Shown here in pieces: positions 1,964 to 28,661 of a stretch of 35,617 bases of DNA. The DNA lies in the IMG/VR virus record IMGVR_UViG_3300033142_000349, positions 1-35,617 of that record; one strand, written 5' to 3'. The notes beneath the pieces are model-generated. The model was not told where the DNA came from, did no database searches, and saw only the letters and a program-made list of their open reading frames with translations. The first letter of the stretch is position 1, and each line of letters starts with the position of its first letter. A program made the position numbers and the translations under genes. This stretch comes from a virus.

Positions 1964-4375
1964 ATGAAGGTTTTTACAAATAGCAATAGTTCTTTTCCAG
2001 ATCAGGTAGTACCAGACGTGGAAAAAGCTACATGGGAATATGGGCTACAAGTAGGTCGAGCAATTGAAGGAGAATGGTTTTGGGCTGGTAGAGGAAGAGA
2101 TAGGTTTCACCAAAATTTCCAAAATTTTCACAACCTTAGATTATATGCGAGAGGAGAACAATCTGTTCAAAAGTATAAGGATGAATTAGCTATTGATGGA
2201 GATTTATCTTATTTAAACTTAGATTGGAAACCAGTACCCATTATTCCTAAATTTGTAGATATTGTTGTTAATGGAATAAATGATAGACATTTTGATATAA
2301 ACGCGTTTGCGCAAGATCCTGTTTGCTCTAGACAAAGAACTGAATATGCTACAGGTTTATTAACTGATATAAACGCAAAAGACTTTTTAACTCAAGTAGA
2401 ACAAACGTTAGGAGTTAATGCTTTTAATTCTGCTGACAGAGATAATGCTCCACAAGATCAAGAGGAGTTAGCAGTGCACTTACAAATGGATTTTAAACAG
2501 TCTGTAGAAGTTGCAGAAGAAGAAGTTATAAGTCAAGTTTTAGAAAAAAATAAATATGATTTAACAAGAGCTAGGTTTAATAAGGATTTAGTAGAAATTG
2601 GCATTGGTGCTTGTAAAACCACATGGAATCAATCTGAAGGAATTGTTGTTGATTATGTTGATCCTGCAACTTTAGTTTGGTCTTACACGGAAGATCCTAA
2701 CTTTGAAGATATCTGGTATGTTGGAGAAGTAAAAGGAATAAGTTTAGCAGATCTTAAAAAACAATTCCCTGAACTTACTGCAGCAGAGTTAGAAGAAATA
2801 GAAAGATATCCTGGCAATCAAAATTATTTACGCAATTGGAATGGTAGGCAAGATGATAACATAATACAAGTTTTATTTTTTGAATATAAAACTTATACTA
2901 ATCAAGTATTTAAAATAAAAGAAAACGATTACGGGTTAGAAAAAGTACTAGAAAAAAGTGATGCATTTAACCCACCAGAAAATGAATTAGGATATGGCAA
3001 ACTATCTAGAGCTATAGAAGTACTTTATTCAGGAGCTAAAATATTAGGACATCCTCAGATGTTAAAGTGGGAGATGGCGGAAAATATGACACGTCCTGTT
3101 GCAGATACAGTAAAAGTAAATATGAATTATGCTATCTGTGCTCCAAGAATGTATAAGGGAAGAATAAACTCTTTAGTAAATAGAGTGACAGGTTTTGCTG
3201 ATATGGTTCAAATCACTCACTTAAAATTGCAACAAGTTCTATCTAGAATGGTACCTGATGGTGTATATCTAGATGTAGATGGATTAGCAGAAGTAGATCT
3301 AGGTAATGGGACGAACTACAATCCTCGTGAAGCTTTAAATATGTACTTTCAAACGGGTAGTGTAGTAGGTAGATCATTGACGCAGGACGGAGATGCTAAT
3401 AGAGGTAAAGTTCCTATACAAGAGTTACAATCTTCAGCTGGACAAGCTAAAATACAGTCACTGATACAAACATATCAGTACTATCTTCAAATGATCAGAG
3501 ATGTGACGGGATTGAACGAGGCGCGTGATGGTAGTATGCCAGACAAAGATTCATTAGTAGGAATTCAAAAATTAGCTGCAGCAAACTCTAATACAGCTAC
3601 TAGACATATATTAGAGGCTAGTTTGTATATAACATTAAGAATGTGCGAAAACATTTCAATGAGAGTTGCAGATTCATTAATGTATCCTACAACAAGAGCA
3701 GCCTTAGAAAATAGTATATCTCAATATAATGTTGGAACTTTAGATGAATTAGCTGAATTAAACATTCATGACTTTGGTATATTTATAAATTTAGAACCAG
3801 ATGAAGAAGAAAAAGCTCAACTAGAACAAAATATTCAAATAGCATTAAAAGAAAATCAAATATATTTAGAAGACGCTATTGATATTAGAGAAGTCAAAAA
3901 CCTCACATTAGCTAATCAATTTTTAAAATATAGAAGAAGAAAAAAGGCTGAACAAGATCAAGCTAATCAAGAGCGAATGATACAAGCCCAAGCTCAGGCT
4001 AGCGCAGAAGCTGCAGAAAAAGCAGCTATGGCTGAAGTTCAAAAACAACAAGCGTTAGTAGAAACACAAGCTCAACTAAAGAAAGTAGAAATGGAATTGC
4101 AAATTCAAAAAATGCAAATTCAACTTAATCACGACATGCAAATGGCGCAACAAAGATTTCAATATGATATGCAGTTAAAAGGTATGGATGATGAAAAAGA
4201 TGCTGCGAGAGAAAAAGAAATTGAAGAAAGAAAAGACAAAAGAACAAGAATACAAGGAACACAACAAAGTAAAATGATAGCACAAAGAACTAATGATAGT
4301 GCTCCAATAGACTTTGAAGCAGGAGGTGGAGCAGGTCAAATGGGGTTTTCTCCAGATGATTTCACTCCAACTTAA
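1964..4375 (+). CDS. Portal protein
   Basis: This is probably the dodecameric portal at the capsid vertex through which DNA enters and leaves and to which the neck attaches. The ATG abuts the terminase stop. At 803 residues it is in the size range of P22-type and crAss-like portals. The middle of the protein is a mixed fold with stretches such as SSAGQAKIQSLIQTYQYYLQ and a ring-facing helix region. From about residue 655 to 765 it becomes a long Gln/Ala/Glu/Lys-rich coiled coil, as expected for a C-terminal barrel or crown helix. It ends in a Gly-rich tail (GGGAGQMG). The position directly after the terminase is the main support; no single diagnostic motif was recognised. Confidence 0.82.
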   Translation: MKVFTNSNSSFPDQVVPDVEKATWEYGLQVGRAIEGEWFWAGRGRDRFHQNFQNFHNLRLYARGEQSVQKYKDELAIDGDLSYLNLDWKPVPIIPKFVDIVVNGINDRHFDINAFAQDPVCSRQRTEYATGLLTDINAKDFLTQVEQTLGVNAFNSADRDNAPQDQEELAVHLQMDFKQSVEVAEEEVISQVLEKNKYDLTRARFNKDLVEIGIGACKTTWNQSEGIVVDYVDPATLVWSYTEDPNFEDIWYVGEVKGISLADLKKQFPELTAAELEEIERYPGNQNYLRNWNGRQDDNIIQVLFFEYKTYTNQVFKIKENDYGLEKVLEKSDAFNPPENELGYGKLSRAIEVLYSGAKILGHPQMLKWEMAENMTRPVADTVKVNMNYAICAPRMYKGRINSLVNRVTGFADMVQITHLKLQQVLSRMVPDGVYLDVDGLAEVDLGNGTNYNPREALNMYFQTGSVVGRSLTQDGDANRGKVPIQELQSSAGQAKIQSLIQTYQYYLQMIRDVTGLNEARDGSMPDKDSLVGIQKLAAANSNTATRHILEASLYITLRMCENISMRVADSLMYPTTRAALENSISQYNVGTLDELAELNIHDFGIFINLEPDEEEKAQLEQNIQIALKENQIYLEDAIDIREVKNLTLANQFLKYRRRKKAEQDQANQERMIQAQAQASAEAAEKAAMAEVQKQQALVETQAQLKKVEMELQIQKMQIQLNHDMQMAQQRFQYDMQLKGMDDEKDAAREKEIEERKDKRTRIQGTQQSKMIAQRTNDSAPIDFEAGGGAGQMGFSPDDFTPT

Positions 4376-9994: not shown

Positions 9995-11866
9995 ATGGCA
10001 GAATCAAAAAATACTTTTATAAAGTCTAAGATGAATCAAGATCTAGACAGTAGATTAATTCCTAATGGTGAATATAGATCAGCATTTAATATCGCAGTAA
10101 GTCAAAGCGAAGGATCTGACGTAGGAACATTAAGAACTGTACTAGGTAACTTAGAAATTAGTGATTTTGGATTCACTGAAGAATGTAATGTAAAAATTAT
10201 AGGTCACTGTGTTGACGATGAAAAGAATTTTATTTATTTATTCTTTACTAACTTTATTGATACTTCTTCTGATAAATTAAGTAATTATCCTTCGGATGAA
10301 GCAATCTGTCAGATTTGGAGAAGAGATCTTGAAACGAGTAGTAATGTAAAATTAGTGGAAGGAAAGTTTCTTAATTTTTCTCTAACACATCCTATATCTG
10401 GTATTAATGTATTAGAAGAATTACTTTTTTGGACAGATAACAGAAATCAACCGAGAAAAATTAATATTAGTAATGCTAATCCTAGTGCTTCTATAAATCC
10501 TACATACTATACTAATGATGATCAAATAAATGTTATTAAATATTATCCTTATGATCCTATTTTATTAATAAATGATTATGTAGTAGATTACACTATAAAT
10601 ACCGGTACAGTTGGGGATTATAGTGCTTATATAGATGATATAGTATATACATTAGGTGGATCAGGTACAGGAATGACTGTAGAAATTACTGAAGCTACAG
10701 GATTTCCTGGACAACTACGTGGAATTAAAATTATAAATCAAGGTGTAGGATATCAAGATGGAGATGTAGTTGAAATAGCACCTAAAATTGGAGATGCCAC
10801 AATCACTCTTCAAATGGAAGTTGGTACTACCATGAAAGACAAGTGTACTGAAAAACTCCCGGTTAATTCTACTTTCACAGTTTCACCACTAGCTGATTTA
10901 GATAATGGGTTGCCTATTGATGTAATTCATGACTCTGGACCAGAGTTAGATGAAGTAGATTATACAGGAGCTTTAGTAAGAATTACTGGAACAAGCGCTA
11001 GTCCTTATTTAGCAAGAGTTACTGGTCAATCTTCGGGAACACCTGATACGTTAACTATTGAATGGCCTAATATAATTCCTACTCAAGTAACTGATGTAGC
11101 GTTAATTGAAGTAGGTATGAATCCTGACTACGATCCTAATTGGCCAGGTGATTGTGAATATTTAAAAGACAAATTTGTAAGATTTGGTTATAGATTTAAG
11201 TTTAATGATAACGAATATTCTCTTATTTCTCCATTTACACAAGCATGTTTTATACCTAAACAAAATGGTTATTTTTTATCTAAAACTAAAGAAGTATTTG
11301 ATGCAACAGGTATAGCGTCCGAAGTATCCATTACAGACACTCAACAAACGTTAGAAAGTACAGAAGTAGAGTTTTTTGAAAATGCCGTTACTAATGTAGA
11401 TTTAATTATTCCTTGCCCAATATTTTTAGATGAAAGTATATCAGGATTTAATAATTTAACAGAACAATTACATGTAGAAGCTATTGAAATAATATATAAA
11501 GATGATGCAGAAACTGTATTAAAAGTAGTAGATGTTATTGATAAAGTATCTTTTTCTAATATAAATTCTAATATATTGTTATATGATTATCAGTCTAGAA
11601 AACCCATAAAAGTATTACCTGAATCTGAAATAACTAGAGTAAGTGATAAAGTGCCTTTAAGAGCTTTAACGCAAGAAGTTGTAGGCAATAGAGTAATGTA
11701 CGGTAACTACATCGATGGTCATTCTAGTTTGAATAGTTTAAATTATGAAGTAAATGCAGGTCCTAAATTTAATCTTCCTGAAAACACATTAAGAAAAGAA
11801 TATCAAAACCATACATTAAAACAAAATAGAAATTACCAAGTTGGAATTGTTTTATCTGATAGATAA
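9995..11866 (+). CDS. Large tail/virion protein, N-terminal piece
   Basis: This is the first 623 residues of the large tail protein. The start (ATG four bases after the previous stop) is well placed. The opening (NTFIKSKMNQDLDSRLIPNG, then YRSAFNIAVS) resembles, from memory, the start of very large tail proteins of marine phages. The protein is beta-rich and Asp/Asn-rich, with no catalytic motif seen. Residues about 221-262 hold a Gly-rich repeat unit ending GVGYQDGDVVEI that recurs in the next piece. The frame stops at TAA after LSDR, but coding continues directly beyond it. In a podovirus-like virion this could be a tail hub, nozzle or muzzle component; that is inference from size and position. 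Confidence 0.65.
   Translation: MAESKNTFIKSKMNQDLDSRLIPNGEYRSAFNIAVSQSEGSDVGTLRTVLGNLEISDFGFTEECNVKIIGHCVDDEKNFIYLFFTNFIDTSSDKLSNYPSDEAICQIWRRDLETSSNVKLVEGKFLNFSLTHPISGINVLEELLFWTDNRNQPRKINISNANPSASINPTYYTNDDQINVIKYYPYDPILLINDYVVDYTINTGTVGDYSAYIDDIVYTLGGSGTGMTVEITEATGFPGQLRGIKIINQGVGYQDGDVVEIAPKIGDATITLQMEVGTTMKDKCTEKLPVNSTFTVSPLADLDNGLPIDVIHDSGPELDEVDYTGALVRITGTSASPYLARVTGQSSGTPDTLTIEWPNIIPTQVTDVALIEVGMNPDYDPNWPGDCEYLKDKFVRFGYRFKFNDNEYSLISPFTQACFIPKQNGYFLSKTKEVFDATGIASEVSITDTQQTLESTEVEFFENAVTNVDLIIPCPIFLDESISGFNNLTEQLHVEAIEIIYKDDAETVLKVVDVIDKVSFSNINSNILLYDYQSRKPIKVLPESEITRVSDKVPLRALTQEVVGNRVMYGNYIDGHSSLNSLNYEVNAGPKFNLPENTLRKEYQNHTLKQNRNYQVGIVLSDR
10655..10779 (+). repeat. Gly-rich beta repeat unit, copy 1 (protein level)
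   Basis: The encoded segment begins GGSGTGMTVEIT and ends NQGVGYQDGDVVEI. The same pattern (GGSG-G-TV ... G-GY--GD---I) occurs at 12179-12311. Such units are common in phage tail and bacterial surface beta structures. Confidence 0.6.
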
Positions 11867-12673
11867 TATGGTAGGCAATCTGATGTTATATTATCTTCTT
11901 TAGATGATGCATTGTCTTTTGCGGCTGGGGAAGCTTTTCTAGGTTCTACTATATATCATCCATATAAACCTGGTGGTTGGTCTAGACAAAATATTATTAC
12001 AGACGGTAATCGTACTTGGCCAGGAGATACTTTAAATGTAAGATTTAATGAGGTTATTCCTACTAATCCTGGAATTCCTGGTTATCCTGGTTTATTTGTG
12101 GGTTCAGATGCACCTAGTATTAGTAGTTTATATGGAGGAGCCGGATATCCATCAGGTCTATTAGGTGTTAGCACAACAGGTGGATCAGGTGTAGGATTAA
12201 CCGTTAATTATACAACTTTTAAACCTACCATATTAAGTAACATAATATCAGTAGAAATAGCTGATCCTGGCTTTGGATATGAACAAGGTGACATTATAAC
12301 TATTAATGGAGGAACGCCTGGTAACGAAGCAACATTTATTTATAATCCTTCTCAAACTCCAAAATTAAATGGGTGGTATAGTTACAAAATAGTTGTAAAG
12401 CAGACTGAACAAGATTATTACAATGTTTATCTACCTGGTATTGTAAATGGAGAAATAAATACTTCGGGTGTAGCAACCGCTTCAACAGCAACGTTAAGTT
12501 TATATGCTGACAATATAAATAAAGTTCCTAGAGATTTAACAGAAGTTGGTCCTACACAAAAAACTTTTAACTCAAGTGTAGAATTATCAATAAGAGTGAC
12601 TAATGATTATCAAATACCTTGGACTAGTAATCAATTTTACCCTGACACAGCTACTGAAAAAGTTTTACATTAA
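11867..12673 (+). pseudogene. Large tail/virion protein, second piece (no own start)
   Basis: This stretch continues the previous frame after a single TAA. It is clearly coding (YGRQSDVILSSLDD, then GGWSRQNIITDGNRTWPGD), yet has no Met codon; the only near-start is TTG at 11912, inside the conserved-looking region and with no ribosome binding site. It therefore makes sense only as part of the larger protein. It carries the second Gly-rich repeat unit. Toward the end, VTNDYQIPWTSNQFYPDTATEK runs into VLH and a stop, while the -1 frame continues with sensible sequence. It is expressed only if the stop and frameshift are artefacts or are bypassed. Confidence 0.65.
12179..12311 (+). repeat. Gly-rich beta repeat unit, copy 2 (protein level)
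   Basis: The encoded segment begins GGSGVGLTVNYT and ends DPGFGYEQGDIITING, matching the layout of the unit at 10655-10779 with about 45 residues per unit. This supports the view that both pieces belong to one modular tail protein. Confidence 0.6.
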
Positions 12674-12759
12674 GAAGAATAACAAAAGACATTAATAGTG
12701 TTCTTGGTGGTGGCACAGGAATAACTTATAATAATTTTTCTGAAGATATTGTAGCTGGC

Positions 12760-14289
12760 ATGTCTGTAATTATTACTGAAAATAATGGTAATATAAGAGT
12801 TCCTTTAAGTGATAATATATATGTTACTTCAACTTATATTAACTCTGGAGCGTTTAATCAAGTTAATTTTAATGAAACTGTTGCAGGTATAGCTGCTACA
12901 GATACTATAACTTTTGGTCCTCCAGGTATAATATATAATTCAAACAATAATCCACTTATAGGTATATTAAGTACTTCTGAGCAAATAGGTGTTGCAGAAG
13001 AAGATGATTTTAAAGTGCAATTAGCCGTTGCTGAAACTCAACCTTTTGAATCTAATTTAGAAGTTTATTATGAAACAACAAGTGCTGGATTAATACAAGA
13101 TCTTAATGTAGCTATACAAGAAGGTGCTGGAGCCGTAGCTGTTCCATTTGCAATTGACACTATAGATACTGCTAGCTGGAACGAATCTCAAACTGGACCA
13201 TTTGCAATTACTAATAATTTTGGTTTGTTAGACGCAACAAACTCCCCATTTGTAGATCCAAATGCTGTTGGAGATTTAGTAAGTGTTTTTGATGGAAATA
13301 ACAATACTAGAGATGGTGAGTTTCAAATAAACAATCTAGGTAATGGTACTTTTAATATATCTACAGTTAAAGCGCCAGGTGAAGGTTTTGTAGTATTACA
13401 AGATGAAAATTTAACAGATTTTACTTTTAATGTATCTATTCAAAGTCAAGGAATAACTTTATTTAAAACTTTCAGTGAATCTATAAATAATGAAAGACCT
13501 GTTTATGGTGGTAGTTATGATGTTCTTTCAATTCCTGGCTACAAACTTCCAGTGGGTTCTGCATATATTTTTCCTACCGATCAAACTCTTCTTCCAACAA
13601 AAGGATCTTTAATAAACGGGAATGATATATTTTCTGCTGTAAACGGAAGCGGAGATGTAAATTTAGAAAAACAAGAATTAAAATGGACTATAATAAGTGC
13701 AATATGTGTTGGTGGAGAAAATAAAACTGAAGTGGAATGGAACGCAGCTCCAGATGGTGGTAATAATGTTGTTGCGTGGCCAGCAAATGGTTGGTGGGGT
13801 CCTTTTCCAAATAGTGTAGACAGTACAGCTATCTATCAAAATAATCCACAATCAAGTGTAGGATATAACAGCTTCCAAATATTGAATGGGGCAAATTATA
13901 TGGAAATGTTTCATTGGGCTCTTTTAAATCCTAGTTTACTTGATCCAACTCAAGATAATCCTAGTGCGACAAATAATAAATGGGGAGTAAACACTGGTGG
14001 ACCGCCATTTGGACAAGTTACAACCTTCAACAATAAAGCAAGATTATGTACGTATAATGGAGTAAATGGAGGATTAGGATCAGGAGGGGGATTAGTATAT
14101 ACTGATCGGCCTGCGAGTAATGCTGGTGTAAACAGTGCTGGTGTTGGCTGGACAAGTACTGGGTATAAAGCTAGTTCTTTCGTTAAGTTTATAGACTTTG
14201 AAGTAAAGATTAAAGTTGAAGATAGAAATGGTCAGGGTTTAACTCCTAACACACAGGAAGTAGTTTTAAACGTTAGATTTCAATATTAA
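12760..14289 (+). CDS. Large tail/virion protein, third piece
   Basis: The frame opens upstream of its first ATG (12760): from about 12664 it encodes RRITKDINSVLGGGTGITYN, so the ATG is not a natural start. The 509 residues after the ATG are beta-rich and full of Asn, Gly, Ser and Thr, with no catalytic motif, as in tail or receptor-contacting structures. A Trp-rich stretch (VAWPANGWWGPFPNS) lies near residues 345-360. It ends VVLNVRFQY followed by TAA, and the next piece continues in the same frame. There is no Shine-Dalgarno before the ATG. If the gene really is split, this piece would need its own initiation. I regard it as the central part of the composite gene. Confidence 0.6.
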   Translation: MSVIITENNGNIRVPLSDNIYVTSTYINSGAFNQVNFNETVAGIAATDTITFGPPGIIYNSNNNPLIGILSTSEQIGVAEEDDFKVQLAVAETQPFESNLEVYYETTSAGLIQDLNVAIQEGAGAVAVPFAIDTIDTASWNESQTGPFAITNNFGLLDATNSPFVDPNAVGDLVSVFDGNNNTRDGEFQINNLGNGTFNISTVKAPGEGFVVLQDENLTDFTFNVSIQSQGITLFKTFSESINNERPVYGGSYDVLSIPGYKLPVGSAYIFPTDQTLLPTKGSLINGNDIFSAVNGSGDVNLEKQELKWTIISAICVGGENKTEVEWNAAPDGGNNVVAWPANGWWGPFPNSVDSTAIYQNNPQSSVGYNSFQILNGANYMEMFHWALLNPSLLDPTQDNPSATNNKWGVNTGGPPFGQVTTFNNKARLCTYNGVNGGLGSGGGLVYTDRPASNAGVNSAGVGWTSTGYKASSFVKFIDFEVKIKVEDRNGQGLTPNTQEVVLNVRFQY

Positions 14290-14316
14290 ATAACAGTAAA
14301 AACAAGTGATTATAAT

Positions 14317-16041
14317 ATGAGTGCTATAGTAGAGGTAAAGTATTTCAATTCATTTTGGTTAAAAAAAGTAGAAAAAACATTTGGAGGAAGTCCTAGTCCT
14401 ACTGAATCAACACCTACTTGGCCTGGAATAGACTGGAATCCATTTGGTTATCCTGCTTTTCCAATTGAAGGAGCACCAAATGCAGAAACTGAATCGGAAG
14501 GTAATTGGTATATAGAAGAAGCTCGAATAAAAGGTGGCTTTAATAACACTATGGTCTCTCAAGGAGTAAGAGCTTATGCTAACGAAGAAAATCCAGTTCA
14601 AGACTTAAGATCATCTTCTATTATTTATTCAGGAATTTACAATTCTAGAACTGACATTAATAGAACCAATGTTTTTTCTTCTAGTGAGGAAATAACCAAA
14701 ACTTTAGATCCATCATTTGGGAGTATTCAAAAGTTATTTGCAGAAGATAACAATCTATTAATGTTTCAAGAAAATAAAGTAAGTAAAGCTTTAATTGATA
14801 AAGATGCTATTTATTCAGCTGAGGGTGGAGGAACTTTAACAAGTTCTAATGTTGTGATTGGAGAAACTATTCCTTATTTAGGAAGGTACGGAATTGGAAG
14901 ATATCCAGAATCGTTTGCTCAGTTTGGTTTTAGAAAATACTTTGCTGATCCAAATAGAGGTACTGTAATGAGGTTATCTAGAGACGGTTTAACGGAAATA
15001 TCTGAATATGGAATGAAAGATTTCTTTAGAGATAAATTAACCGAAATAACTAATAATTATTCTACTGTTAATATTGGTTGGGTTTTTGATGGAATTCCTG
15101 ATCCTAGTGCTGTTACTAGTTTTACAGTAGAAAACTTAGATGCTTGTAATATATTTATAGGAAGTAAAGTGTTTAATGAAGTTGCATCTGCGTTTATAGA
15201 TACGGGTGCCATTGTAACTAATATTGAAGCATTAGGAACTAGTCCAGAAACTTATGCTATAACAGTAAATAAACCTTTTATAGCCCAAGCGTCTGGAGCT
15301 TTTTCATTTGATTATAAAAGTAGAATTATAGGAAGTTGGGATAATTTTAGTAAATACTATACTTTATCCATACAATCAACACCTTCTTTTATAAGTGAAA
15401 CTGAAGATTATTTTACATTATCTTTTGATGAAGGAGTAAAGGGATGGGTTAGTTTTTTCAACTATAAACCGTCAACAGCTTTTAGTTTAAAAGGAAAGTA
15501 TTATACAACCATCAACAATAAATTATACGAACACTACGATCAAAGTATAGGAAATAATTTTGGTATTTTTTATCAAAAAAGTTATCCGTCTACTATTAAT
15601 TTTATTATTAATGCAGAACCATCTCTTAAAAAAGTATTTACCACTATAAATTATGAGGGAGATAATGGTTGGCGAGTTAATGGTATATTAAGTTCTCCAA
15701 CAAGAGTAAATCTTCCTCCTAATGAATCATCTTCAGACTTTACTAATAGTATTTATAGTTATAAAGAAGGTTTATATACTGATGCTCAAGGTTATCCTAT
15801 AAGATGTGGTTTTGATAGAAAAGAAAATTTGTATGTGGCTGCGTTAAAAGATAATTCACTGTTTGAAGATGGACAAGTTTTAGTAGGTAGTAGTACTACA
15901 GGATTAAAAGGATATTTTTTAGATGTCACTTTACAAACAGATGGTAGTATAGATTCATCTGGAGTATATAATGCTGTAACTGATCCAGGAGGATCAAAAG
16001 AAATTTGGTCAGTAGGAACAACTTTTGTTAAATCATCTTAA
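14317..16041 (+). CDS. Large tail/virion protein, C-terminal piece
   Basis: The last 574 residues of the composite tail protein. Nine sense codons between the TAA and this ATG (ITVKTSDYN) are in the same frame and flow into MSAIVEVKYFNSFWLKK, so the ATG is probably an internal Met. A Pro/Gly linker (residues about 25-50) is followed by conserved-looking structural segments: SIIYSGIYNSRTDINRTNVF, SIQKLFAEDNNLLMFQENKV and RYPESFAQFGFRKYFADPNR. From memory these resemble the ends of very large tail proteins in marine flavophages. No enzymatic residues were recognised. It is followed after 10 bases by the cupin gene. Confidence 0.65.
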   Translation: MSAIVEVKYFNSFWLKKVEKTFGGSPSPTESTPTWPGIDWNPFGYPAFPIEGAPNAETESEGNWYIEEARIKGGFNNTMVSQGVRAYANEENPVQDLRSSSIIYSGIYNSRTDINRTNVFSSSEEITKTLDPSFGSIQKLFAEDNNLLMFQENKVSKALIDKDAIYSAEGGGTLTSSNVVIGETIPYLGRYGIGRYPESFAQFGFRKYFADPNRGTVMRLSRDGLTEISEYGMKDFFRDKLTEITNNYSTVNIGWVFDGIPDPSAVTSFTVENLDACNIFIGSKVFNEVASAFIDTGAIVTNIEALGTSPETYAITVNKPFIAQASGAFSFDYKSRIIGSWDNFSKYYTLSIQSTPSFISETEDYFTLSFDEGVKGWVSFFNYKPSTAFSLKGKYYTTINNKLYEHYDQSIGNNFGIFYQKSYPSTINFIINAEPSLKKVFTTINYEGDNGWRVNGILSSPTRVNLPPNESSSDFTNSIYSYKEGLYTDAQGYPIRCGFDRKENLYVAALKDNSLFEDGQVLVGSSTTGLKGYFLDVTLQTDGSIDSSGVYNAVTDPGGSKEIWSVGTTFVKSS

Positions 16042-18905: not shown

Positions 18906-21900
18906 ATGGAAAAATTAATGCAAGAGCTCCAACGTAAAGGTTTGTTTCCAGCAGATGGAACTTTACAAGAGTTTGTTAAGCAATATGGTAATAAAGAAGC
19001 TTTAACAAGTTTACACACTGATTTAGTAAGTAAAGAAATACTAGATGATAGTGTAGCTGATTTTGATTCTTTTGTTACAGGTTTTGAATTATCTGAGGTG
19101 GTAACACCTACTGTTTTAGGTGGTGATGATCCTTTTGAAACTACAGGTTTAGAAGAACCTTCTATTCCTAATACGCCACAGTCTATAGCCTCAGATTTAG
19201 ATCAAGATTTGCAACAGTGGTATCAAGGTGAGTTAGAAAAACTAACCTTACCTAATGGTGCTAAAATACCTCAATACGATGCTGCTTTAAAAAGATTAAA
19301 CGCAGAATTAAATACTAGAAGATTAGATAATGCTAGTGTAAATATGGATAATATTGCACAGCAACAAATAATTCCTTATTTAGGTGGAGAAACGTCAAAC
19401 CCAATTATAGAGATTAGTGATCCCTCAGAAGTTGTGTCTGAGCAAAGAGCTGGTGAAGAATTTGTTTATGGTGGACAATCTCAATTAGAAGATAGATATA
19501 ATAGACAAACCACGGATGCTGAAGCTAAACCTCAAACAGGTATTCATTCGTGGATGTTTACAGAAAGTAATGTTAATTTAAAACCGTATGGAGCACCTAG
19601 TTCTCAAGGCGTAAAAGATACGGAATATAAGCTAGCAAATAAACTATGGACGATTAGTGATGAATTTGATGGAAGCATAGATAAAACACTAGTGCCAGTA
19701 CTTGAAAGACAATACCCTGGTTATGAATTTAAATCAGCAAGAGAAAAAGGCTTAAAAAAAGCAGGTACGCTTAACAATATTCATGGTATTCCTATTGAAG
19801 TCACTGCTCCAAATGGTGAAAAAACTACTATACATGGAGGATTAGATCCTTCTGGAGTAGCTAAAAATGTAGACTTAACAAAAACTATAGAAGAGCAAAA
19901 AGTTAAATTAGCAAACTTCATTAACACTCATGGTATAGACTTAACAAAAGTTAAATCTAGTATTCAAAGTACCGCTCAGAGGTATAATGATCTATTAGCA
20001 AAACCATATAATGAAAAGAAAGTTTCTCTTGGTGGTATAGGATTAGATCTTAACCAACAGGCTACAGCTGATAGTTACGGTATAGGTGAATATATAGAAG
20101 ATGAGAACGGTACAGTAAGTTATAAATTTGAATATAATCCAGCTTTATTTCATGATAATTCATATGAAGATTACTTAGCAACTAATGGTGAAGAATTAAT
20201 TTCAAGAGGAGTAATAACTCAAGACGAATTATCAAACCCTGACAGCGAAGAAACTAAAAGTAAAATTAAAAAAGATATCTTAGTTACTCATGGTGAGTAT
20301 GGTGATGATAGAGAATTACAACTCCCAAACTACGGACCTAAAGCTGCCGGTTACAAAGCAATCATCCATGATATAGATTTTGGAAACAAATATATGGCAT
20401 TTTCAAAAGGTAGTAAGGCTTGGGATAATACGGTTAAAGCTTTAGCCCCTGCTTATAATGCTGCTGGTGTAGATTTAGATGATGAGACGATTAAAACACA
20501 TATTGCTCAAAAAGAACATAATAAGTATGTTAATGGTGCGTTAGACGCTAACTTGAATGAATATTTATGGAAGTCTGACAATGATAACAAAACTCAAGCT
20601 TTATTTTCTGTTGCTGCTATAGTTACTAAAGATGTTAAGTTAAATCAAGCTATGGCTTTACAAGGTCTTAATGAAGCTGCTATAGATAACTATAATAAAC
20701 CTACTCCAGATTTAGCTATAGTAGACATGTTTGAAGAAACTTACAATGATCCTTCAGGTTCTTTCAACATAGAGGGATTAAGTGAAGATAATATAGTAAC
20801 ACTTAGAAATGGTAAACAAGTTTCTAAAAAAGATTTTAATGGGTATGTAGCTGCTAAAAGTAGAAGAAACAACCAAATGACAGCTATGCTAGATCGTAGG
20901 TCTAAAGCTTGGGAGTTACAAGATGAAGTTGGAGATATAGATGCTAATATAAAATTATTAGAAAAAAATTATAACGCTTGGAGTTCATCACTAGCTACTT
21001 TAGGATTAGGTTTTAGTGACATTGGAACTGGATTACTTTATTTAGGAGGTAAAGCAGCTAAATACACACCTGTAGGTGCTGGAGCTACTTTCTGGTTGGG
21101 ACAAGCTGCTAACGCTTTTACTGAAGATGGAAATTTTTTAACAGACTTTTGGGATGAGTGGGACAAAGAATGGGCAGATCAGTACGATGATTATAGTTTT
21201 TGGAAAGAAGGAATTAAAAGCCAATACGGTAAAGAAGTAGGTTTTCATAGAGATAGATTTGGAAGAGGAGGAGCATTTTCTCCTGGAAATTTTGGAAGAT
21301 TCGTAGCACAAGAAACTTCTAAACAAATACCTATTTTAGCTACTATGATTGCTAGTGGTGGAACCGCTGCACCTTGGGTTATTGGTGCTTACTCTGCTGG
21401 TCAACATTGGGCAGATGCAGATAGAAAAGAATACGTAACTGGTAAAGTTGAAAACGAGTTTATACAAGGTATGCAATCAATTGGCTATGGTGCTGCTGAA
21501 GGAATTTTTGAAAGACTTACTACTGTGCCTATATTAAGAAGAGGTGGTAAGCTGGTTCAAGGGTTAGGAGAACCTAGTATGTTAAGCTACAGGAATGCAA
21601 TGAAACAATATTTTAAAGAAAATGGAGCGTTTCTAGTTTCTAGTCCTATTGCTGAATCTGCTGCTGAATTTGGTACTCAAATAACACAAAATGCTATTGA
21701 TGGTAGACCAATCATGGAAAATGTAGATCATGCTGCTTTTGTAGGAGGTATGTTTGGTCATGCCATGAGTATAACACCTTTCATGTCAGGCCTTGCTGCT
21801 AGACAATTTAGTGATTATAATTCTTTTTCAGAATACAAAAATAGGCAACAAGAAATAAACGAGCTTGAACAAGAATTAGTTTATGAAACACAAAGGTTTG

Positions 21901-24900
21901 CAATTCCTCAAGATATAGCTTCTATTAAAATGAAGCAAAAAGTTATTGATGATTTAAAAGTAGAGCAAAAAGCTTTTGTTGAAGAAAAGTTTGCCGCTAT
22001 TCAAAATACAATGACTAATAGTGCTTATAACAACTTTGAAGAAGCTTTGAACGAGCAAGCGGACATTAGTGAGGTTGTTAATGATATGTTATCAGTTGAC
22101 AACACTAATACTAACAATAAATTACTTCAAGTATATAAAGATAGATTTGACAACTTACAATATAAAAGAGATGTATGGAGAAGTGCGGCAAATTTCTCTA
22201 ATCAATTTACATTATTAGAAACATCTAATAAAGAAAGATACGACCGTACGGTTAAGCAAGCTAAAGCACAGTTAGCTAAAGATAACGTAGGAAATGTAAG
22301 AGATGATCAAGTTTTACCATTAGCTGAAGAAATATATGTAGGTGAACTAATAGATGAGAACTTTGAATCAGTCGCTAAAAATAAATCTAAAGGTAAAAGA
22401 TATTTAAAATTCGATACTAACGGAGAAGCTTTAACGTATATAGAGGATGTTCTCGCGACCTCTAAGGAGAAAATAAATGCTAAGAAGGATTTAACAGACG
22501 AACAAAAAAAGTCTCGTATAGTTAATCTAGAACGACAGATAAGAGATGTTAAGGATAACGTCAACAAGAAGGAAACTAAAGGTGCGATAACTAGTTTGTT
22601 AGAAGGTAGATTAAGTGGTTGGAATATGACGTTTGATGCTGATGGTATATTAACAACTGATCCAGCGGCTATAAAAAGAAGTGAAGTTTTAGGTTTTAGA
22701 GAAAATGCGATAAGAAACAATGAGACTCAAATATTCACGCATGAAGCAGGTCATGATATTTTTGGAGAATTATTAGGTTATGACTCTAAAGAGTTTAAAC
22801 CTTTAGCTGATGAGATAATATCTTACATGTCAAAGACTAATCCTATGTTATTAAAAGGATTAGCTTTAAAAAGAGGTAGAGAGTTACAGAAGTCAGATGA
22901 AGTAGTAATGAATTTTTTAGAACTTGTTGGACAAAAGAAAATAAACATTGAAGATAAACAAGGTGGATTACTTTCTTCTTCTTTTGGTTTTATAACTAAT
23001 AATATTTTTAAAAACAACAACAAACCCACTATGGAGTTTAATGGACAAAATGGTGCTATTAAATTTCTACATGAATTAGGAACTGCAGTGTCTGAAGGTA
23101 GAGTTACTCCAGAAATGGTAGCTAAATGGAAGAGAGAGGGTGTTATACAAGGAGCTAAAAAGAAATATCAAAAAGCTCAACGTCAATATAAAAAGTTGAT
23201 TGAAGAATCAGCCATAGCATTATTAGATGAAAATATAGATAATTATAAATTTTCCGATACTAAAGATGTTGAAGACGCAAATCAAATCATGAAAGATTTA
23301 TTAGCTTTAGTTGCGGACAATAAAGTTACTCCAGTAAAAAACTATGAAGCTAAGAAAGCAGCATTAACAGCTAAGTATCAAAAACTTAAAAGTGAATCTT
23401 CAGTTGTGGAAACAGTTCCAATATTTGAAGGTAGTATAAGAGATGAATCTGACGCAGCAAGAAAAGAAAGAGTTAATTTAATAGAAAGATCTTTCAGAGG
23501 TAGATTAGAAACTGCACAAGGTGGTAGACCTATGGGGGAAATTCTTAGAGCTTATGAAGGGAAAATTGAAGCACTGTTTAAAAAAGGTGGATACTATGCT
23601 ACAGATTCTTATCAGAGATTTCAAGATATTTCAGAAGCGTTGGAAGAGTTTACTGCTATAACAAATGTAGAACTAATGAAATCTATTCGTGCATTTAAAC
23701 CAGATGTAAATAAAGATTTTGATGCTTACATAATGAGTCCTAAGATCTTGCCTAATAAAGTTAAGTTAGCTAATAAAATTATAGGTAGAGAATCTAAAAA
23801 TGAAGGATTTGACACTGGATTAGAAGCTGCTAGTGGAGTAGCGGTAAGTGAAGATACTACTTTAGAAGAATTTGAAACAACATTAAGAGAAGTATTAGGT
23901 GTAAAGAAAGGTGATCCAATGTATGAAGCAGCTATGACGGCTGTTCAAGATGTAATGCAAAAAGGTTTACCTAAGTTTGAATACACACAAAGAAAGAAAA
24001 GCGGTGGAGGAGAAACTGTAACTCTCGCACAGGTTAGAAAAACATTAAGTACTAATCCCACTGGTGAAGCTAAAAGACAAGCAGAAAGAGATTTAGCTGG
24101 GATAATGAAAAAGGTTAAATCAGAGCTAGAAGCTAGTTATCAACAAGCTTTAGATAAGACCATTAAACAAGAATTTTTAAAAGCCAAAGTGTATGATTCT
24201 TTTTTAAAAGAACATCGTACTGAGTTATTAAAACGTTTACCTATTGAAGATCTAGTAGCTCTAGAAAGATTAGTAAAGCCAGAAAGTAAGATATTTACTA
24301 GTGTCAGAGTGATGGATAAACAAACTGGTAGAACTGTTTTAAATCCTACTGAAGTTAAACAGTATGAAGGATCTGGAAATTTAACTACAGCAACTACTAC
24401 TCAAGGTCCTACTTTATACAATAGAAAAAACCCAAGTGAAAAACAATTTGTAGATTTCTTTAACGTTAGAGGAAGAAAAAATGCTTTAGCTAAAATACTT
24501 AGTAATGTTTTAGGATTAGATGCTACTATGCAAAATATAACTAGTGAAAAGGTTGTTAATGAAGTAGCTGAAGGAAATCCTCAAATTAAAGAACAATTAG
24601 GTGAACAAGCTTTAAAAGATTTTGCGTTATCTATAGGAAGAGGTACTGCTTTTAAATTTTCAATGGCCGAGTCTGTAGGCATGGAAGGTAGATTAGCAGA
24701 AGACTATAATAAGTTGCAACCAAATATTTTAGATCTTATAATTGACATGAATGTGTCTGATCCCATGTCAGTTAATTTAGCGGTAGATGTAGTATTATCT
24801 GAAGGCAAGTATGCTCCATATAGAAGTGCAATTAAAAAGAATTTAAAAAGATTTTTAAGACCTTACGCTAAAGCCGTTGACTCACCGGGTGAAATTCAAA

Positions 24901-27900
24901 TAGATATTAATGAGTACATAACTAGAGAACTTGATAGAACTGAAGATGAAAGTATTCAGAGAATGTGGAATTCAAAACCAATGGCGCAAGCTTTTGCTAA
25001 TCCAACCGATGTTGTACTTCAAAGAGAGTTTGACAATAGGACTATTCAACAAGAACTTTTAAATAAAGCAGGTTATGATAGTAAAGGTAATCAAAATCCA
25101 GTTACAGAGCAAATTAAAATAGACCAAGCTGCTTTAGAGGTAAGATATATGGCTAGGATTCAATCTGGTGTAGAAGTAGTTTCAAAGAAAGCAAGGAACA
25201 TGCTTTACCAAAATATTAGTTCGTTTAAAGCTGATTTCTTAAAATCTAATTTTGGATTCAAAGATTATAACACTTTCAACGTAAAAGATAAAAACGGAAA
25301 ATCTACTAGATATCTAGAGTTTATAAGAGAAGATGGATCACGTACTAAACCAGTGGTTTTTCCTACAAGTCCTTCTCAAAAAGTAGAACTTAATATGATA
25401 GATGGTTCTATGACTCAAGCAGAAGTAGATTTTAGAGAAAAAATGGCTGATGAAGCGTGGAACTTTGTTGTTAATAAATATAAAGCCGCAAAAGAAGTAG
25501 TAGAAAATGACAGTGCTGATGAGTTAAATATAGCAATGTTAATGGCTGGTATGGGTAGTATGATGAAAGGGCCAATTAGAGCAGCTGCTCCTTTTAGATA
25601 TCGACCTGTTGACGCGCCATTTACAACTTTAAAAGATTCTGATGGAAATAAAAATTTCGAATACGAACATGGTATACCAGCTAAAATAGTTAACTTGCTA
25701 ATTGCTGATGCAGTATTCAATCCTGACAGTGATGTTAATCTACAAAAACTAAAAGATTCATATGCGATAGGTGCTATTCCTGTAGATATGAACGAAAACT
25801 TTAGCACGTTTTTTGGAGATAGAATGCAAGACACTTATAAGGTTGGTGACATTGCACCTACAAGATGGTACAATGAATACACTAGAGGTAGAGCTGCTTA
25901 CGCTGTAGAAGATGTTAGAACTAAAGAAAGGTTTGGAGAGAAAGAAGCTCAGTTGTGGAAAGAAGAACAGCAAGCTGCTAATGTTAATAAATTTTCTTTA
26001 TCTAATGATGTAGTTGATATGGACGGGTTAAAACCAGATGAGATATTAAATTACGCAGCAACTATAGATAAGGCTTTACAAATAGCAAGAGATCCTAACG
26101 CCCCTGTCAAGAAGATTAGAGTATTTGATTTTGATGATACACTAGCCACAACAAAAAGTAATGTACTATATACTATGCCTGATGGTACCACTGGTAAATT
26201 AACTGCTGAAGAGTTTGCTAAAAAAGGAGATGAGATGGTAGCTCAAGGAGTTAAGTGGGATTTCTCAGAGTTTAATAAAGTAATGCAAGGTGGTAAAGGA
26301 CCTTTACTTGGAGTTGCTAAATTAATTCAACAAGCGAGAGGAACTAAAGACGTATTCGTGCTCACTGCTAGATCTCAAGAAGCCGCGCCAGCTATTAAAG
26401 AATTTTTAGATAGCGTTGGTTTAAAAATTCCTTTGAAAAATATTACAGGATTAGGTAATAGTTCTCCTTTCGCTAAATCTAGATGGGTTATAGAAAAAGC
26501 TGCAGATGGCTATAATGATTTCTATTTTGCTGATGATCATATGGGTAATGTTAAAGCTGTAGAAGATGCATTGTCAGTTATAGACGTTAAGTCAAAAGTA
26601 CAGCAAGCTAAATTCAAATTTAGTGAAAGTGTTGATAGAGATTTTAACATTATTCTAGAACATTCGCTTGGCATAGAATGGTTCAAAGACTATAGCAAAG
26701 CTAAGGGAGAAATGTTAGGGAAGCAGAATCAAAAAAGAAAAATACATCCTTATTCTGCAGAAGATTTTGAAGGGTTGATATATCCCTTACTAGGAAAAGG
26801 CAAAAGGGGAGATTCCAATTATAAGTGGTTTGAAGAACATTTATTTAAACCATTCTCAAGAGCAATGACTGATCTAGATTCTGCTAGAATAAACTTAATG
26901 GATGATTTTAGAGCTTTAAAGAAAACATTAATCGCTCCTAAAACAATTAAAAAAATAAACTCTACAGGATTTACTAACGAAAATAGTATTAGAGTTTTTG
27001 TTTGGGATAAATTAGGTAAAACTATACCTGGTTTAAGTAAAATTGATTTAGCTGAAATAAATAAAGAAATAGAAAATAATCCTGAATTAAAATTATTTGC
27101 TGAAGAATTAATTAAAATAAACAAAGGTGAGTATAAAGAACCTGGTAAACATTGGCTAGCAGGGACAATCACTACAGATCTTTACGAAGGATTAAATACT
27201 ATAAAGAGAGCAGAATATTTAAAACAATGGAAAGAAAACGTTGACATTATATTTTCTGATAAAAACTTAAACAAACTAGAATCTAAGTTTGGTCCTAAAT
27301 ACATTGAAGCTTTAAAAAATTCTTTGAGAAGAATGGAATCTGGTTCTAACAGATCATTTAGTAATAATAGACTTACTAATCAAGTGTTAGACTATTTAAA
27401 CAATGCTCAAGGAGTTGTAATGTTTTTGAACATGAGATCAGCTTTATTACAAGGTATATCAAATGTCAATTTCTTGAATTGGTCTTTTAATAATCCTCTT
27501 AAAGCTGGTGTTGCTTTTGGTAATATGCCACAATACTCTAAAGATTTTATAGAGTTAATGAACTCTGATTATTTAGTTAACAGAAGGGGTGGATTATCAA
27601 TGGATATACACGCAGATGAGGTTGCTAATAGTGCTAAGACTTCTAAAAATAAAGCTAAAGCAATAATTAGTTATATAATAGAAAAAGGATACACTCCAAC
27701 TAAGTTTATGGATAGTTTCGCTATAGCTTCAGGTGGTGCTACTTTTTATAGAAATAGAATAAACGATTTAGTTAAAAAAGGATTAAGCGAGGAAGAAGCA
27801 AGAGCTCAAGCTTACGAGGAGTTTGTAGAAATATCAGAAAAAAATCAGCAATCATCTAGACCAGATAAAATATCTTCTCAACAAGCTAGTACTTTAGGAA

Positions 27901-28661
27901 GATTAACATTAAACTGGGCTAATACTCAAATGCAGTATGTGAGAATACAAAAGAAAGCAATTCAAGATATAGCTAATAACAGAGGAGATTTTAAAACAAA
28001 TGTTAGTAGAATAGTTTATTATGGAGTTGTACAAAACTTATGGTTTCAAATGGCTCACTCAGCTATGTTTGCATTAGCATTTGGAGAAGATGATGATGAT
28101 CCTACTTTTAAAGAAGATAAGATAGAAAGAACTGCAAATGGAGCTGCTGATAATATTCTAAGAGGATTAGGAATTGGAGGGCATGTATTTTCTGTACTTA
28201 AAAATATGGGTATAAAAATATATAAAGAATCAGAAAAAGATCGACCGCGATATGCAGATCAGTTATGGGAATTATTTAAGTTGTCTCCAGTTATAAGTTC
28301 TAAAGTTAATAGACTTAAGCAAGCAGCTTGGCAATTCGATTCTAAAAAGAGGAGACAAGAAATGATTGATAAAGGATTTGCTTTAGATAATCCCGCTTAT
28401 GAAGCAGGCGCTAAAGTAGTAAGCGCTGTAACAAATATACCTGTAGATAGATTGTTAATTAAGATGCAAAATATAGGAGATGCATTGTCAGAAGAAACAG
28501 ATGCGTGGATGGATATAGCTTTATTACTAGGTTGGCCAAGATGGACTTTAGAAGCAAAGAAAAAAGAAACTTCAAAATGGGGACCTACAAAAGATAAAAA
28601 GAAAGATAGTTGGGGACCTAGTGGATATAAAAAAGAAAAATCATGGGGTCCACAAAAGTAG
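18906..28661 (+). CDS. Giant polyvalent-type internal virion protein with protease and HAD domains
   Basis: A 3,251-residue protein, nearly a quarter of the window. N-terminal short helical domain (1-70), then about 600 uncharacterised residues. Hydrophobic segments lie near residues 693-738, 808-833 and 943-965 and could cross or disturb a membrane. Residues 1279-1283 are HEAGH, the zinc-metalloprotease HExxH motif, in the context IFTHEAGHDIFGELLGYD. A complete HAD hydrolase motif set follows: DFDDT at 2408-2412, Thr2487, Lys2524 and the acidic pair Asp2543-Asp2544, indicating phosphatase activity. A helical C-terminal region leads to a Lys-rich tail with three WGP repeats. This layout matches the large polyvalent proteins of phages, which are thought to be injected with DNA. 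Ejection is inference; no lysozyme motif was recognised. Confidence 0.7.
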   Translation: MEKLMQELQRKGLFPADGTLQEFVKQYGNKEALTSLHTDLVSKEILDDSVADFDSFVTGFELSEVVTPTVLGGDDPFETTGLEEPSIPNTPQSIASDLDQDLQQWYQGELEKLTLPNGAKIPQYDAALKRLNAELNTRRLDNASVNMDNIAQQQIIPYLGGETSNPIIEISDPSEVVSEQRAGEEFVYGGQSQLEDRYNRQTTDAEAKPQTGIHSWMFTESNVNLKPYGAPSSQGVKDTEYKLANKLWTISDEFDGSIDKTLVPVLERQYPGYEFKSAREKGLKKAGTLNNIHGIPIEVTAPNGEKTTIHGGLDPSGVAKNVDLTKTIEEQKVKLANFINTHGIDLTKVKSSIQSTAQRYNDLLAKPYNEKKVSLGGIGLDLNQQATADSYGIGEYIEDENGTVSYKFEYNPALFHDNSYEDYLATNGEELISRGVITQDELSNPDSEETKSKIKKDILVTHGEYGDDRELQLPNYGPKAAGYKAIIHDIDFGNKYMAFSKGSKAWDNTVKALAPAYNAAGVDLDDETIKTHIAQKEHNKYVNGALDANLNEYLWKSDNDNKTQALFSVAAIVTKDVKLNQAMALQGLNEAAIDNYNKPTPDLAIVDMFEETYNDPSGSFNIEGLSEDNIVTLRNGKQVSKKDFNGYVAAKSRRNNQMTAMLDRRSKAWELQDEVGDIDANIKLLEKNYNAWSSSLATLGLGFSDIGTGLLYLGGKAAKYTPVGAGATFWLGQAANAFTEDGNFLTDFWDEWDKEWADQYDDYSFWKEGIKSQYGKEVGFHRDRFGRGGAFSPGNFGRFVAQETSKQIPILATMIASGGTAAPWVIGAYSAGQHWADADRKEYVTGKVENEFIQGMQSIGYGAAEGIFERLTTVPILRRGGKLVQGLGEPSMLSYRNAMKQYFKENGAFLVSSPIAESAAEFGTQITQNAIDGRPIMENVDHAAFVGGMFGHAMSITPFMSGLAARQFSDYNSFSEYKNRQQEINELEQELVYETQRFAIPQDIASIKMKQKVIDDLKVEQKAFVEEKFAAIQNTMTNSAYNNFEEALNEQADISEVVNDMLSVDNTNTNNKLLQVYKDRFDNLQYKRDVWRSAANFSNQFTLLETSNKERYDRTVKQAKAQLAKDNVGNVRDDQVLPLAEEIYVGELIDENFESVAKNKSKGKRYLKFDTNGEALTYIEDVLATSKEKINAKKDLTDEQKKSRIVNLERQIRDVKDNVNKKETKGAITSLLEGRLSGWNMTFDADGILTTDPAAIKRSEVLGFRENAIRNNETQIFTHEAGHDIFGELLGYDSKEFKPLADEIISYMSKTNPMLLKGLALKRGRELQKSDEVVMNFLELVGQKKINIEDKQGGLLSSSFGFITNNIFKNNNKPTMEFNGQNGAIKFLHELGTAVSEGRVTPEMVAKWKREGVIQGAKKKYQKAQRQYKKLIEESAIALLDENIDNYKFSDTKDVEDANQIMKDLLALVADNKVTPVKNYEAKKAALTAKYQKLKSESSVVETVPIFEGSIRDESDAARKERVNLIERSFRGRLETAQGGRPMGEILRAYEGKIEALFKKGGYYATDSYQRFQDISEALEEFTAITNVELMKSIRAFKPDVNKDFDAYIMSPKILPNKVKLANKIIGRESKNEGFDTGLEAASGVAVSEDTTLEEFETTLREVLGVKKGDPMYEAAMTAVQDVMQKGLPKFEYTQRKKSGGGETVTLAQVRKTLSTNPTGEAKRQAERDLAGIMKKVKSELEASYQQALDKTIKQEFLKAKVYDSFLKEHRTELLKRLPIEDLVALERLVKPESKIFTSVRVMDKQTGRTVLNPTEVKQYEGSGNLTTATTTQGPTLYNRKNPSEKQFVDFFNVRGRKNALAKILSNVLGLDATMQNITSEKVVNEVAEGNPQIKEQLGEQALKDFALSIGRGTAFKFSMAESVGMEGRLAEDYNKLQPNILDLIIDMNVSDPMSVNLAVDVVLSEGKYAPYRSAIKKNLKRFLRPYAKAVDSPGEIQIDINEYITRELDRTEDESIQRMWNSKPMAQAFANPTDVVLQREFDNRTIQQELLNKAGYDSKGNQNPVTEQIKIDQAALEVRYMARIQSGVEVVSKKARNMLYQNISSFKADFLKSNFGFKDYNTFNVKDKNGKSTRYLEFIREDGSRTKPVVFPTSPSQKVELNMIDGSMTQAEVDFREKMADEAWNFVVNKYKAAKEVVENDSADELNIAMLMAGMGSMMKGPIRAAAPFRYRPVDAPFTTLKDSDGNKNFEYEHGIPAKIVNLLIADAVFNPDSDVNLQKLKDSYAIGAIPVDMNENFSTFFGDRMQDTYKVGDIAPTRWYNEYTRGRAAYAVEDVRTKERFGEKEAQLWKEEQQAANVNKFSLSNDVVDMDGLKPDEILNYAATIDKALQIARDPNAPVKKIRVFDFDDTLATTKSNVLYTMPDGTTGKLTAEEFAKKGDEMVAQGVKWDFSEFNKVMQGGKGPLLGVAKLIQQARGTKDVFVLTARSQEAAPAIKEFLDSVGLKIPLKNITGLGNSSPFAKSRWVIEKAADGYNDFYFADDHMGNVKAVEDALSVIDVKSKVQQAKFKFSESVDRDFNIILEHSLGIEWFKDYSKAKGEMLGKQNQKRKIHPYSAEDFEGLIYPLLGKGKRGDSNYKWFEEHLFKPFSRAMTDLDSARINLMDDFRALKKTLIAPKTIKKINSTGFTNENSIRVFVWDKLGKTIPGLSKIDLAEINKEIENNPELKLFAEELIKINKGEYKEPGKHWLAGTITTDLYEGLNTIKRAEYLKQWKENVDIIFSDKNLNKLESKFGPKYIEALKNSLRRMESGSNRSFSNNRLTNQVLDYLNNAQGVVMFLNMRSALLQGISNVNFLNWSFNNPLKAGVAFGNMPQYSKDFIELMNSDYLVNRRGGLSMDIHADEVANSAKTSKNKAKAIISYIIEKGYTPTKFMDSFAIASGGATFYRNRINDLVKKGLSEEEARAQAYEEFVEISEKNQQSSRPDKISSQQASTLGRLTLNWANTQMQYVRIQKKAIQDIANNRGDFKTNVSRIVYYGVVQNLWFQMAHSAMFALAFGEDDDDPTFKEDKIERTANGAADNILRGLGIGGHVFSVLKNMGIKIYKESEKDRPRYADQLWELFKLSPVISSKVNRLKQAAWQFDSKKRRQEMIDKGFALDNPAYEAGAKVVSAVTNIPVDRLLIKMQNIGDALSEETDAWMDIALLLGWPRWTLEAKKKETSKWGPTKDKKKDSWGPSGYKKEKSWGPQK
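22722..22766 (+). other. HExxH zinc-protease motif in giant protein
   Basis: Encodes IFTHEAGHDIFGELL. His1279 and His1283 would bind zinc and Glu1280 would act as general base. The residues after the motif match the helical continuation seen in zincins. The third ligand is not certain. Confidence 0.65.
26112..26600 (+). other. HAD-family phosphatase domain in giant protein
   Basis: All four HAD motifs are present in order with normal spacing: KIRVFDFDDTLA (motif I, nucleophile Asp2408 and acid Asp2410), VFVLTARS (motif II, Thr2487), Lys2524 in SPFAKSRW (motif III) and FYFADDHMGN (motif IV, Asp2543/Asp2544). It therefore looks catalytically competent. Confidence 0.8.
28559..28661 (+). repeat. 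WGP tandem tail repeats of giant protein
   Basis: The last 34 residues hold three units of the form Ser-(Lys)-Trp-Gly-Pro separated by Lys-rich linkers (SKWGPTKDKKK, DSWGPSGYKKEK, SWGPQK). The last unit overlaps the start of the next gene. Confidence 0.7.

Follow-up and report, generated by a model that had tools for sequence, protein, structure and literature searches.

A giant virion-operon protein of a flavophage-type podovirus with a predicted gluzincin centre and a HAD phosphatase that appears to serve as an insertion socket in relatives

The giant gene, its operon and its relatives

We analysed an IMG/VR virus record of 35,617 bases from a marine phage (the window, meaning this whole stretch of DNA). 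The ORF list and translation revealed one exceptionally long reading frame, intact from its ATG start and free of interruption.

18906..28661, + strand: giant ORF, 3,251 aa; terminal gene of the virion operon (position compared with isolates)

Genes for the terminase large subunit, the portal protein and several virion structural proteins precede it on the same strand, and a strand switch follows, with ribonucleotide reductase among the genes beyond. The window terminase and portal are related to those of Flavobacterium elemo phages and Cellulophaga phi38:1, Calle and phi18:3, and also to those of Tenacibaculum Gundel, Maribacter Panino and the uncultured podovirus MW202828. The virion operons of elemo, phi38:1, phi18:3 and MW202828 likewise end in a giant gene, of 1,691-3,859 aa. 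These sequence relationships identify the phage as an apparent flavophage-type podovirus whose virion operon is closed by the giant, in agreement with a preliminary description of this DNA that had placed the protein in the virion operon. That description had also reported HExxH and HAD motifs within a single 3,251-residue protein, and both are indeed encoded there, with HEAGH starting at residue 1279 and DFDDT at residue 2408.

Database annotation of the protein is sparse. It has no Pfam match above cut-off, including none to LPD or MPTase-PolyVal domains, and its sole significant PHROG match is the HAD (phrog_415 'polynucleotide kinase', E 2e-9), in keeping with the earlier statement that more than half of the length lacks a recognised domain. 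Neither Pfam nor PHROGs returned an RNA polymerase match, although a distant one could be missed by such searches. The three hydrophobic stretches first reported reduce to a single clear one (808-828) in a Kyte-Doolittle scan (19 residues, cut-off 1.3).

A separate block upstream, window 10079-16030, is strongly diverged, though both of its flanks are 87-95% identical to two relatives, L002 and G004. Relatives carry one virion ORF of 1,423 aa there, and the window has three instead (9995-11866, 11912-12673 and 12760-14289). By sequence, this resembles a block exchanged by recombination among virion and tail genes.

The closest giant, in L002, is 95% identical to that of the window. Beyond it, 80 further loci were taken in, first via portal relatives and then via alignment of the C-terminal module. 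The complete giants among them (n = 77) range from 1,564 to about 3,900 aa and share 40-60% identity across their last 850 residues, being mostly unalignable by BLAST N-terminal of that. The family is very common in IMG/VR, where one module was confirmed in at least 519 of at least 598 pattern-matching stretches; its central enzymes carry no annotation. Searches of bacterial and archaeal genome contigs yielded only 12 matches, all in metagenome bins and half of them in Bacteroidota bins, which points to a viral family linked to Bacteroidota. A tblastn search of 50,697 phage records with the first 2,698 residues returned no match at E 1e-5; homology to isolates became visible only with a small set of loci and profiles. 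Comparison with the L002 giant gave dN/dS values of 0.083 for the whole protein, 0.044 for the zincin region and 0.012 for the HAD, the lowest among all modules, showing purifying selection on the giant as judged from these substitution ratios.

Several relatives have unusual arrangements. One 50-kb contig (IMGVR_UViG_3300025131_000066) carries two kinase-bearing giants on opposite strands (L106:2595-12944 and L107:4289-14848) that are 54-58% identical over their common modules. The largest giant seen (L105:5723-19780; 4,686 aa) has about 850 extra residues between the HAD and the C-terminal module and matches DUF6934 weakly in part of its sequence. The MW202828 giant (L084:744-12320; 3,859 aa) contains two HExxH motifs, and its annotation as 'reticulocyte binding/rhoptry protein' is surely a misnomer.

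Module architecture and the two enzyme centres

Profiles, structural models and motif scans divide the protein as follows.

18906..20786, + strand: variable N-terminal region, residues 1-627 (three relatives, found only by iterated profile; dN/dS 0.13)
20787..22358, + strand: helical virion module, residues 628-1151 (BLASTP and iterated profile; all-alpha in an AF2 model)
22287..23168, + strand: predicted gluzincin module, residues 1128-1421 (72 relatives by profile; strand-helix-helix in an AF2 model)
22740..22754, + strand: HEAGH, residues 1279-1283 (predicted two zinc-ligand His and catalytic Glu)
22899..22901, + strand: E1332, predicted third zinc ligand (invariant in 67 profile-aligned and 82 MAFFT-aligned sequences)
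23247..23255, + strand: KFS linker, residues 1448-1450, directly past the zincin
23484..24590, + strand: domain of unknown function, residues 1527-1895 (47 relatives by iterated profile)
24654..24662, + strand: KFS linker, residues 1917-1919 (motif scan)
24825..26015, + strand: variable domain, residues 1974-2370 (11 relatives by profile)
25989..25997, + strand: KFS linker, residues 2362-2364, directly ahead of the HAD
26103..26615, + strand: HAD phosphatase domain, residues 2400-2570 (phrog_415; AF2 model; VIA-align Z 11.9 to 5uj0)
26127..26141, + strand: HAD motif I DFDDT, residues 2408-2412 (D, F, D and T invariant, n = 72)
26178..26198, + strand: C1-cap socket, residues 2425-2431, hairpin turn PDGTTGK (empty here; kinase or ART-like domain in relatives)
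26361..26372, + strand: HAD motif II LTAR, residues 2486-2489 (invariant, n = 72)
26616..26624, + strand: KFS linker, residues 2571-2573, directly past the HAD
26622..28535, + strand: conserved all-helical C-terminal module, residues 2573-3210 (41-60% identity among giants, AF2 and BFVD)
28536..28658, + strand: lysine-rich tail (sequence), with three [KS]WGP repeats in 28580-28658

Of the 77 complete giants, 74 contain a single HExxH, and a few giants, such as that of L151, lack the motif. Given the composition of the window protein, 0.017 HExxH and 0.10 DxD[DG]T motifs would be expected, and neither the HExxH nor the HAD motif set is a chance occurrence. A profile of window residues 1100-1560 matched 72 giants, with HExxH lying inside the match in 71. 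A MAFFT alignment covered 82 regions excised around HExxH, a selection that fixes H, E and H in advance; in it, the only other invariant residue was the glutamate corresponding to E1332. The profile-based alignment (n = 67), in which HExxH was not imposed, returned H, E and H at 99% and the E1332 column as glutamate at 100%. This conservation of H, E, H and a downstream E conforms to the gluzincin pattern, bearing out the HExxH protease centre first proposed and indicating a predicted gluzincin centre with its full set of ligands.

In the AF2 model, HEAGH sits on a helix that follows two strands, and E1332 on a further helix downstream; local confidence is about 90 near the motif. Comparison with solved zincins gave no match: a PDB profile search with the zincin alignment gave nothing significant, and the VIA-align list for a second, zincin-containing model was filled by helical segments. 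The zincin fold consequently rests on pattern and model and not on a structural match. Pfam M78 matches, all weak, were found in 7 of the 82 zincin regions.

The second centre has all four HAD motifs, I (DxD), II (T/S), III (K) and IV (DD), on a Rossmann-like fold according to sequence and model, and D2408 and D2410 of motif I are the predicted nucleophile and acid/base, respectively. Alignment columns D39, D41, T118, R120, K155, D174 and D175 are invariant in the 72 sequences compared, so that the HAD motif set (DFDDT, LTAR, K and DD), earlier described as intact, is both complete and conserved in its catalytic positions. The AF2 model containing this domain has a mean pLDDT of 76 (about 80 in the HAD region) and a pTM of 0.66. 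VIA-align ranked the 3'-phosphatase of T4 Pnkp first (5uj0; Z 11.9, 2.5 A over 120 residues) and T4 Pnkp again second (Z 10.4), with other HAD enzymes from 9.7 down. The modelled fold is therefore closest to the T4 Pnkp 3'-phosphatase, a common fold that does not by itself show the substrate.

Outside the two centres, no consistent domain emerged when the central and N-terminal regions of 52 giants were scanned with Pfam. An EHxxP motif (residues 2254-2258) lies in the conserved module at 25665-26015 (residues 2254-2370) that directly precedes the HAD; its E and H are nearly invariant in 52 aligned sequences, and RYxN often occurs further on. The iterated profile of residues 1527-1895 also matched residues 2541-2614 of the same proteins, a match that we took for profile drift over the HAD end and did not use.

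Each KFS motif of the window protein lies at most about 30 residues from a profile-defined module end. Ahead of the HAD, the extended form [KR]FS[KR][ST] occurs 16 times in 73 non-redundant giants, compared with 0.9 in shuffles (maximum 3), an enrichment of about 18-fold. These linkers could be cutting sites for the zincin or else recombination-friendly linkers.

The helical module at residues 628-1151 connects the window protein to virion proteins of isolates. BLASTP matched it directly to phi38:1 gp101 and Gundel_74 (E about 1e-8), which link on to phi18:3 gp123 (E 1e-8 to 1e-10), and the iterated profile reached both phi18:3 gp123 and elemo gp18. The gp123 record is annotated as found by MS/MS proteomics. 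Neither HExxH nor HAD motifs are present in phi38:1 gp101, phi18:3 gp123 or Panino, indicating that the virion role does not require the enzymes.

The model of the C-terminal module matched in BFVD the C-termini of phage proteins described as 'large polyvalent protein', ART-PolyVal and MuF-like (E about 1e-5 to 1e-7). Stronger BFVD matches (E 1e-45 to 1e-60) were to proteins of uncultured viruses, one of them named UDP-N-acetylglucosamine kinase and presumably a kinase-bearing member of this family. A PDB profile search with the module found nothing significant, and Foldseek against PDB gave a best E of 0.45, mostly to transporters and armadillo repeats at about 10% identity, which we set aside as chance helical resemblance. 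PF18857 (LPD38) was silent on the C-terminus, as it was on its control.

An insertion socket in the HAD of related phages

The spacing between DDT and LTAR in 172 distinct HADs fell into three ranges: 77-79 residues in 142 (76-78 if counting begins slightly elsewhere), 275-280 in 25 and 209-262 in 5. With a spacing of 77 and no kinase insert, the window HAD belongs to the 142 without an insertion; the other two ranges correspond to a P-loop kinase class (25 HADs) and an ADP-ribosyltransferase-like class (5 HADs). All five examined members of the 275-280 class carry a P-loop kinase that matches AAA_33 at 49 to 69 bits (cut-off 27), with Zeta toxin close behind; polynucleotide kinase families are among the PHROG and Pfam matches of the inserted kinase. 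Three examined HADs with spacings of 209-216 contain an ART-PolyVal-like domain (E 6e-5 to 9e-4, under the Pfam cut-off), and the single HAD with a spacing of 262 resembles an ART by eye only.

The inserts lie invariably between the two strands of the flap hairpin, at window residues 2425-2431, a position that we take to be the C1-cap site of HAD nomenclature. In HAD enzymes the cap domain controls substrate choice. Mapped onto a tree of the HAD core with inserts removed, the three states require at least 13 gains or losses, a number whose exact value is uncertain because the alignment is short and the tree method quick.

Matched pairs of relatives reveal cassette gain or loss without recourse to the tree. 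L236 and L344 are 92% identical in nucleotide sequence over 3,075 bases before the site and 88% over 2,459 bases after it, and differ at the socket by about 600 bases that hold the kinase. This local difference of one cassette comes close to a natural experiment. L143 and L127 display the same flank-matched presence and absence for the ART-like domain.

Collectively, these comparisons show the conserved phosphatase to be, across hundreds of relatives, a socket into which a kinase or an ART-like enzyme has been plugged, or from which it has been removed, many times at precisely the same spot. The preliminary description, made from the sequence of this phage alone, could not detect such a role. 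Together with the Pnkp-like fold, the relatives' kinase suggests nucleic acid ends as the substrate; our guess for the window HAD is 3'-phosphate ends of RNA or DNA, or a nucleotide signal.

Proposed function and comparison with known systems

The reading that we favour, with some reserve, is that the giant is virion-borne polyvalent cargo of a Bacteroidota-infecting podovirus, with zincin-mediated release and a delivered HAD phosphatase. Helical modules 628-1151 and 2573-3210 would serve capsid packaging and ejection, so that the giant would be packaged as a long polypeptide and ejected together with the DNA, probably into bacteria. The internal gluzincin (1128-1421) may then cut the polypeptide itself, or another target, and free its parts. 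Among these, the HAD (2400-2570) would be a phosphatase on a polynucleotide 3'-phosphatase fold delivered at the start of infection, its flap hairpin being the socket where related phages place a P-loop kinase or an ADP-ribosyltransferase-like domain. We infer packaging, ejection, self-processing and substrate for the window protein, and published support for the packaging, ejection and self-cutting steps comes by analogy.

The polyvalent analogy was already part of the preliminary description, and it is well supported by the operon-end position, the homology of residues 628-1151, a gluzincin with all its ligands and a polyvalent-like helical C-terminus, which together argue for virion cargo of this type. 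The accompanying suggestion that the protein acts on host or phage proteins and phosphorylated substrates was too loose, since the zincin precedent is polyprotein (auto)processing and the HAD fold is nearest to a polynucleotide 3'-phosphatase.

Alternatively, the main role of the giant could be structural, as an ejection or inner-core protein comparable to T7 gp16 or the P22 ejection proteins, with enzymes that act only in assembly or DNA entry and no effector delivered. Homologous virion proteins of isolates that lack both enzymes are consistent with this view, as is the helical C-terminal module being the longest conserved part. However, the HAD is the most constrained module and has repeatedly been fitted with other enzymes, and divergence is rapid in the N-terminal and central regions, as it is in conflict proteins; we consider the structural account rather unlikely.

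Somewhat improbable, too, is a T4 Pnkp-like role for the HAD as the phosphatase partner in healing RNA ends, whereby tRNAs cleaved by host anticodon nucleases are repaired. Its appeal lies in the top fold match to the T4 Pnkp phosphatase, the phrog_415 label 'polynucleotide kinase', the P-loop kinase within the same domain of relatives, with polynucleotide kinase families among its matches, and the use of PNK-HAD proteins for such repair by jumbo phages (PMC7824862). Yet a kinase is absent from the window protein, the one inserted in relatives fits Zeta toxin about equally well, and other phages insert an ART-like domain instead, an alternative at odds with a simple repair pathway. A complete T4-style RNA repair pathway was rejected, as no RNA ligase (PF09414, RtcB) was found in 21 relatives of 59-70 kb, where the controls were positive; the T4 Rnl1 model PF09511 was silent in relatives and in its control. 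Quite unlikely, in our judgement, is an anti-immune HAD that strips phosphate from a nucleotide-derived defence signal or small molecule, a reading consistent with the exchange of the cap site among relatives and with the proposal of signal-targeting enzymes in injected polyvalent proteins (PMC7824862).

An extension of the cargo reading, which we offer tentatively and hold to be doubtful, would make the HAD, a delivered phosphatase, a general cap-exchange platform that evolves rapidly in answer to host defences, each module being bounded by [KR]FS linkers that the resident zincin cuts so as to unpack the polyprotein in the host. If so, the presence of a kinase, an ADP-ribosyltransferase or nothing at the C1-cap site would reset the substrate or the coupled reaction.

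Among known systems, polyvalent proteins resemble the giant in being very long, multidomain products of the phage late region that combine a zincin-like metallopeptidase with other enzymes, as described in Iyer et al. 2017 (PMC5512222). In the window, one ORF holds the predicted gluzincin centre and the HAD and is encoded with packaging and late genes. ART-like domains, carried by some relatives, and the helical C-terminus resembling that of annotated members extend the likeness. The window family differs in that its HAD serves as an insertion socket, and HAD, phosphatase and polynucleotide kinase do not appear in the main text of that study (PMC5512222).

The N4 virion RNA polymerase gp50, a packaged and ejected protein of about 3,500 residues, likewise places an HExxH domain ahead of a large helical domain that has no known homologues (PMC12633501). 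Unlike gp50, the window protein contains a HAD, has no matched RNA polymerase domain and comes from another phage family. T4 Pnkp shares the HAD fold (Z 11.9 and 10.4) and the T-x-R of motif II, and some relatives also carry a kinase in the same protein (25 of 172); the window protein itself, with its spacing of 77 and no Pfam kinase, lacks the 5'-kinase domain of T4 Pnkp. Phage PNK-HAD proteins have been described with an N-terminal kinase (PMC7824862), whereas the relatives' kinase is nested in the HAD flap hairpin. A kinase nested in a phosphatase of the polynucleotide-phosphatase fold thus departs from the usual side-by-side layout, and, within a partial coverage of the literature, we found no paper that describes an enzyme inserted at the cap position of a HAD of this kind.

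Also close to the window giant are gp101 of phi38:1, gp123 of phi18:3, Gundel_74 and elemo gp18, which share its operon-end place and a module homologous to residues 628-1151. None of these four has a HAD motif by the pattern used, and two of them, gp101 and gp123, are also shorter than the giant and have no HExxH. Autoprocessing by the zincins of polyvalent proteins was proposed in Iyer et al. 2017 (PMC5512222); if the embedded zincin does unpack the giant, this would answer the 2017 question on the role of their metallopeptidases. Polyvalent-type virion cargo is already known, and the window giant is probably a new family and architecture within it: a concrete, testable candidate for an injected phage polyprotein that joins one conserved protease and one conserved phosphatase to an exchange site accepting two or more kinds of enzyme.
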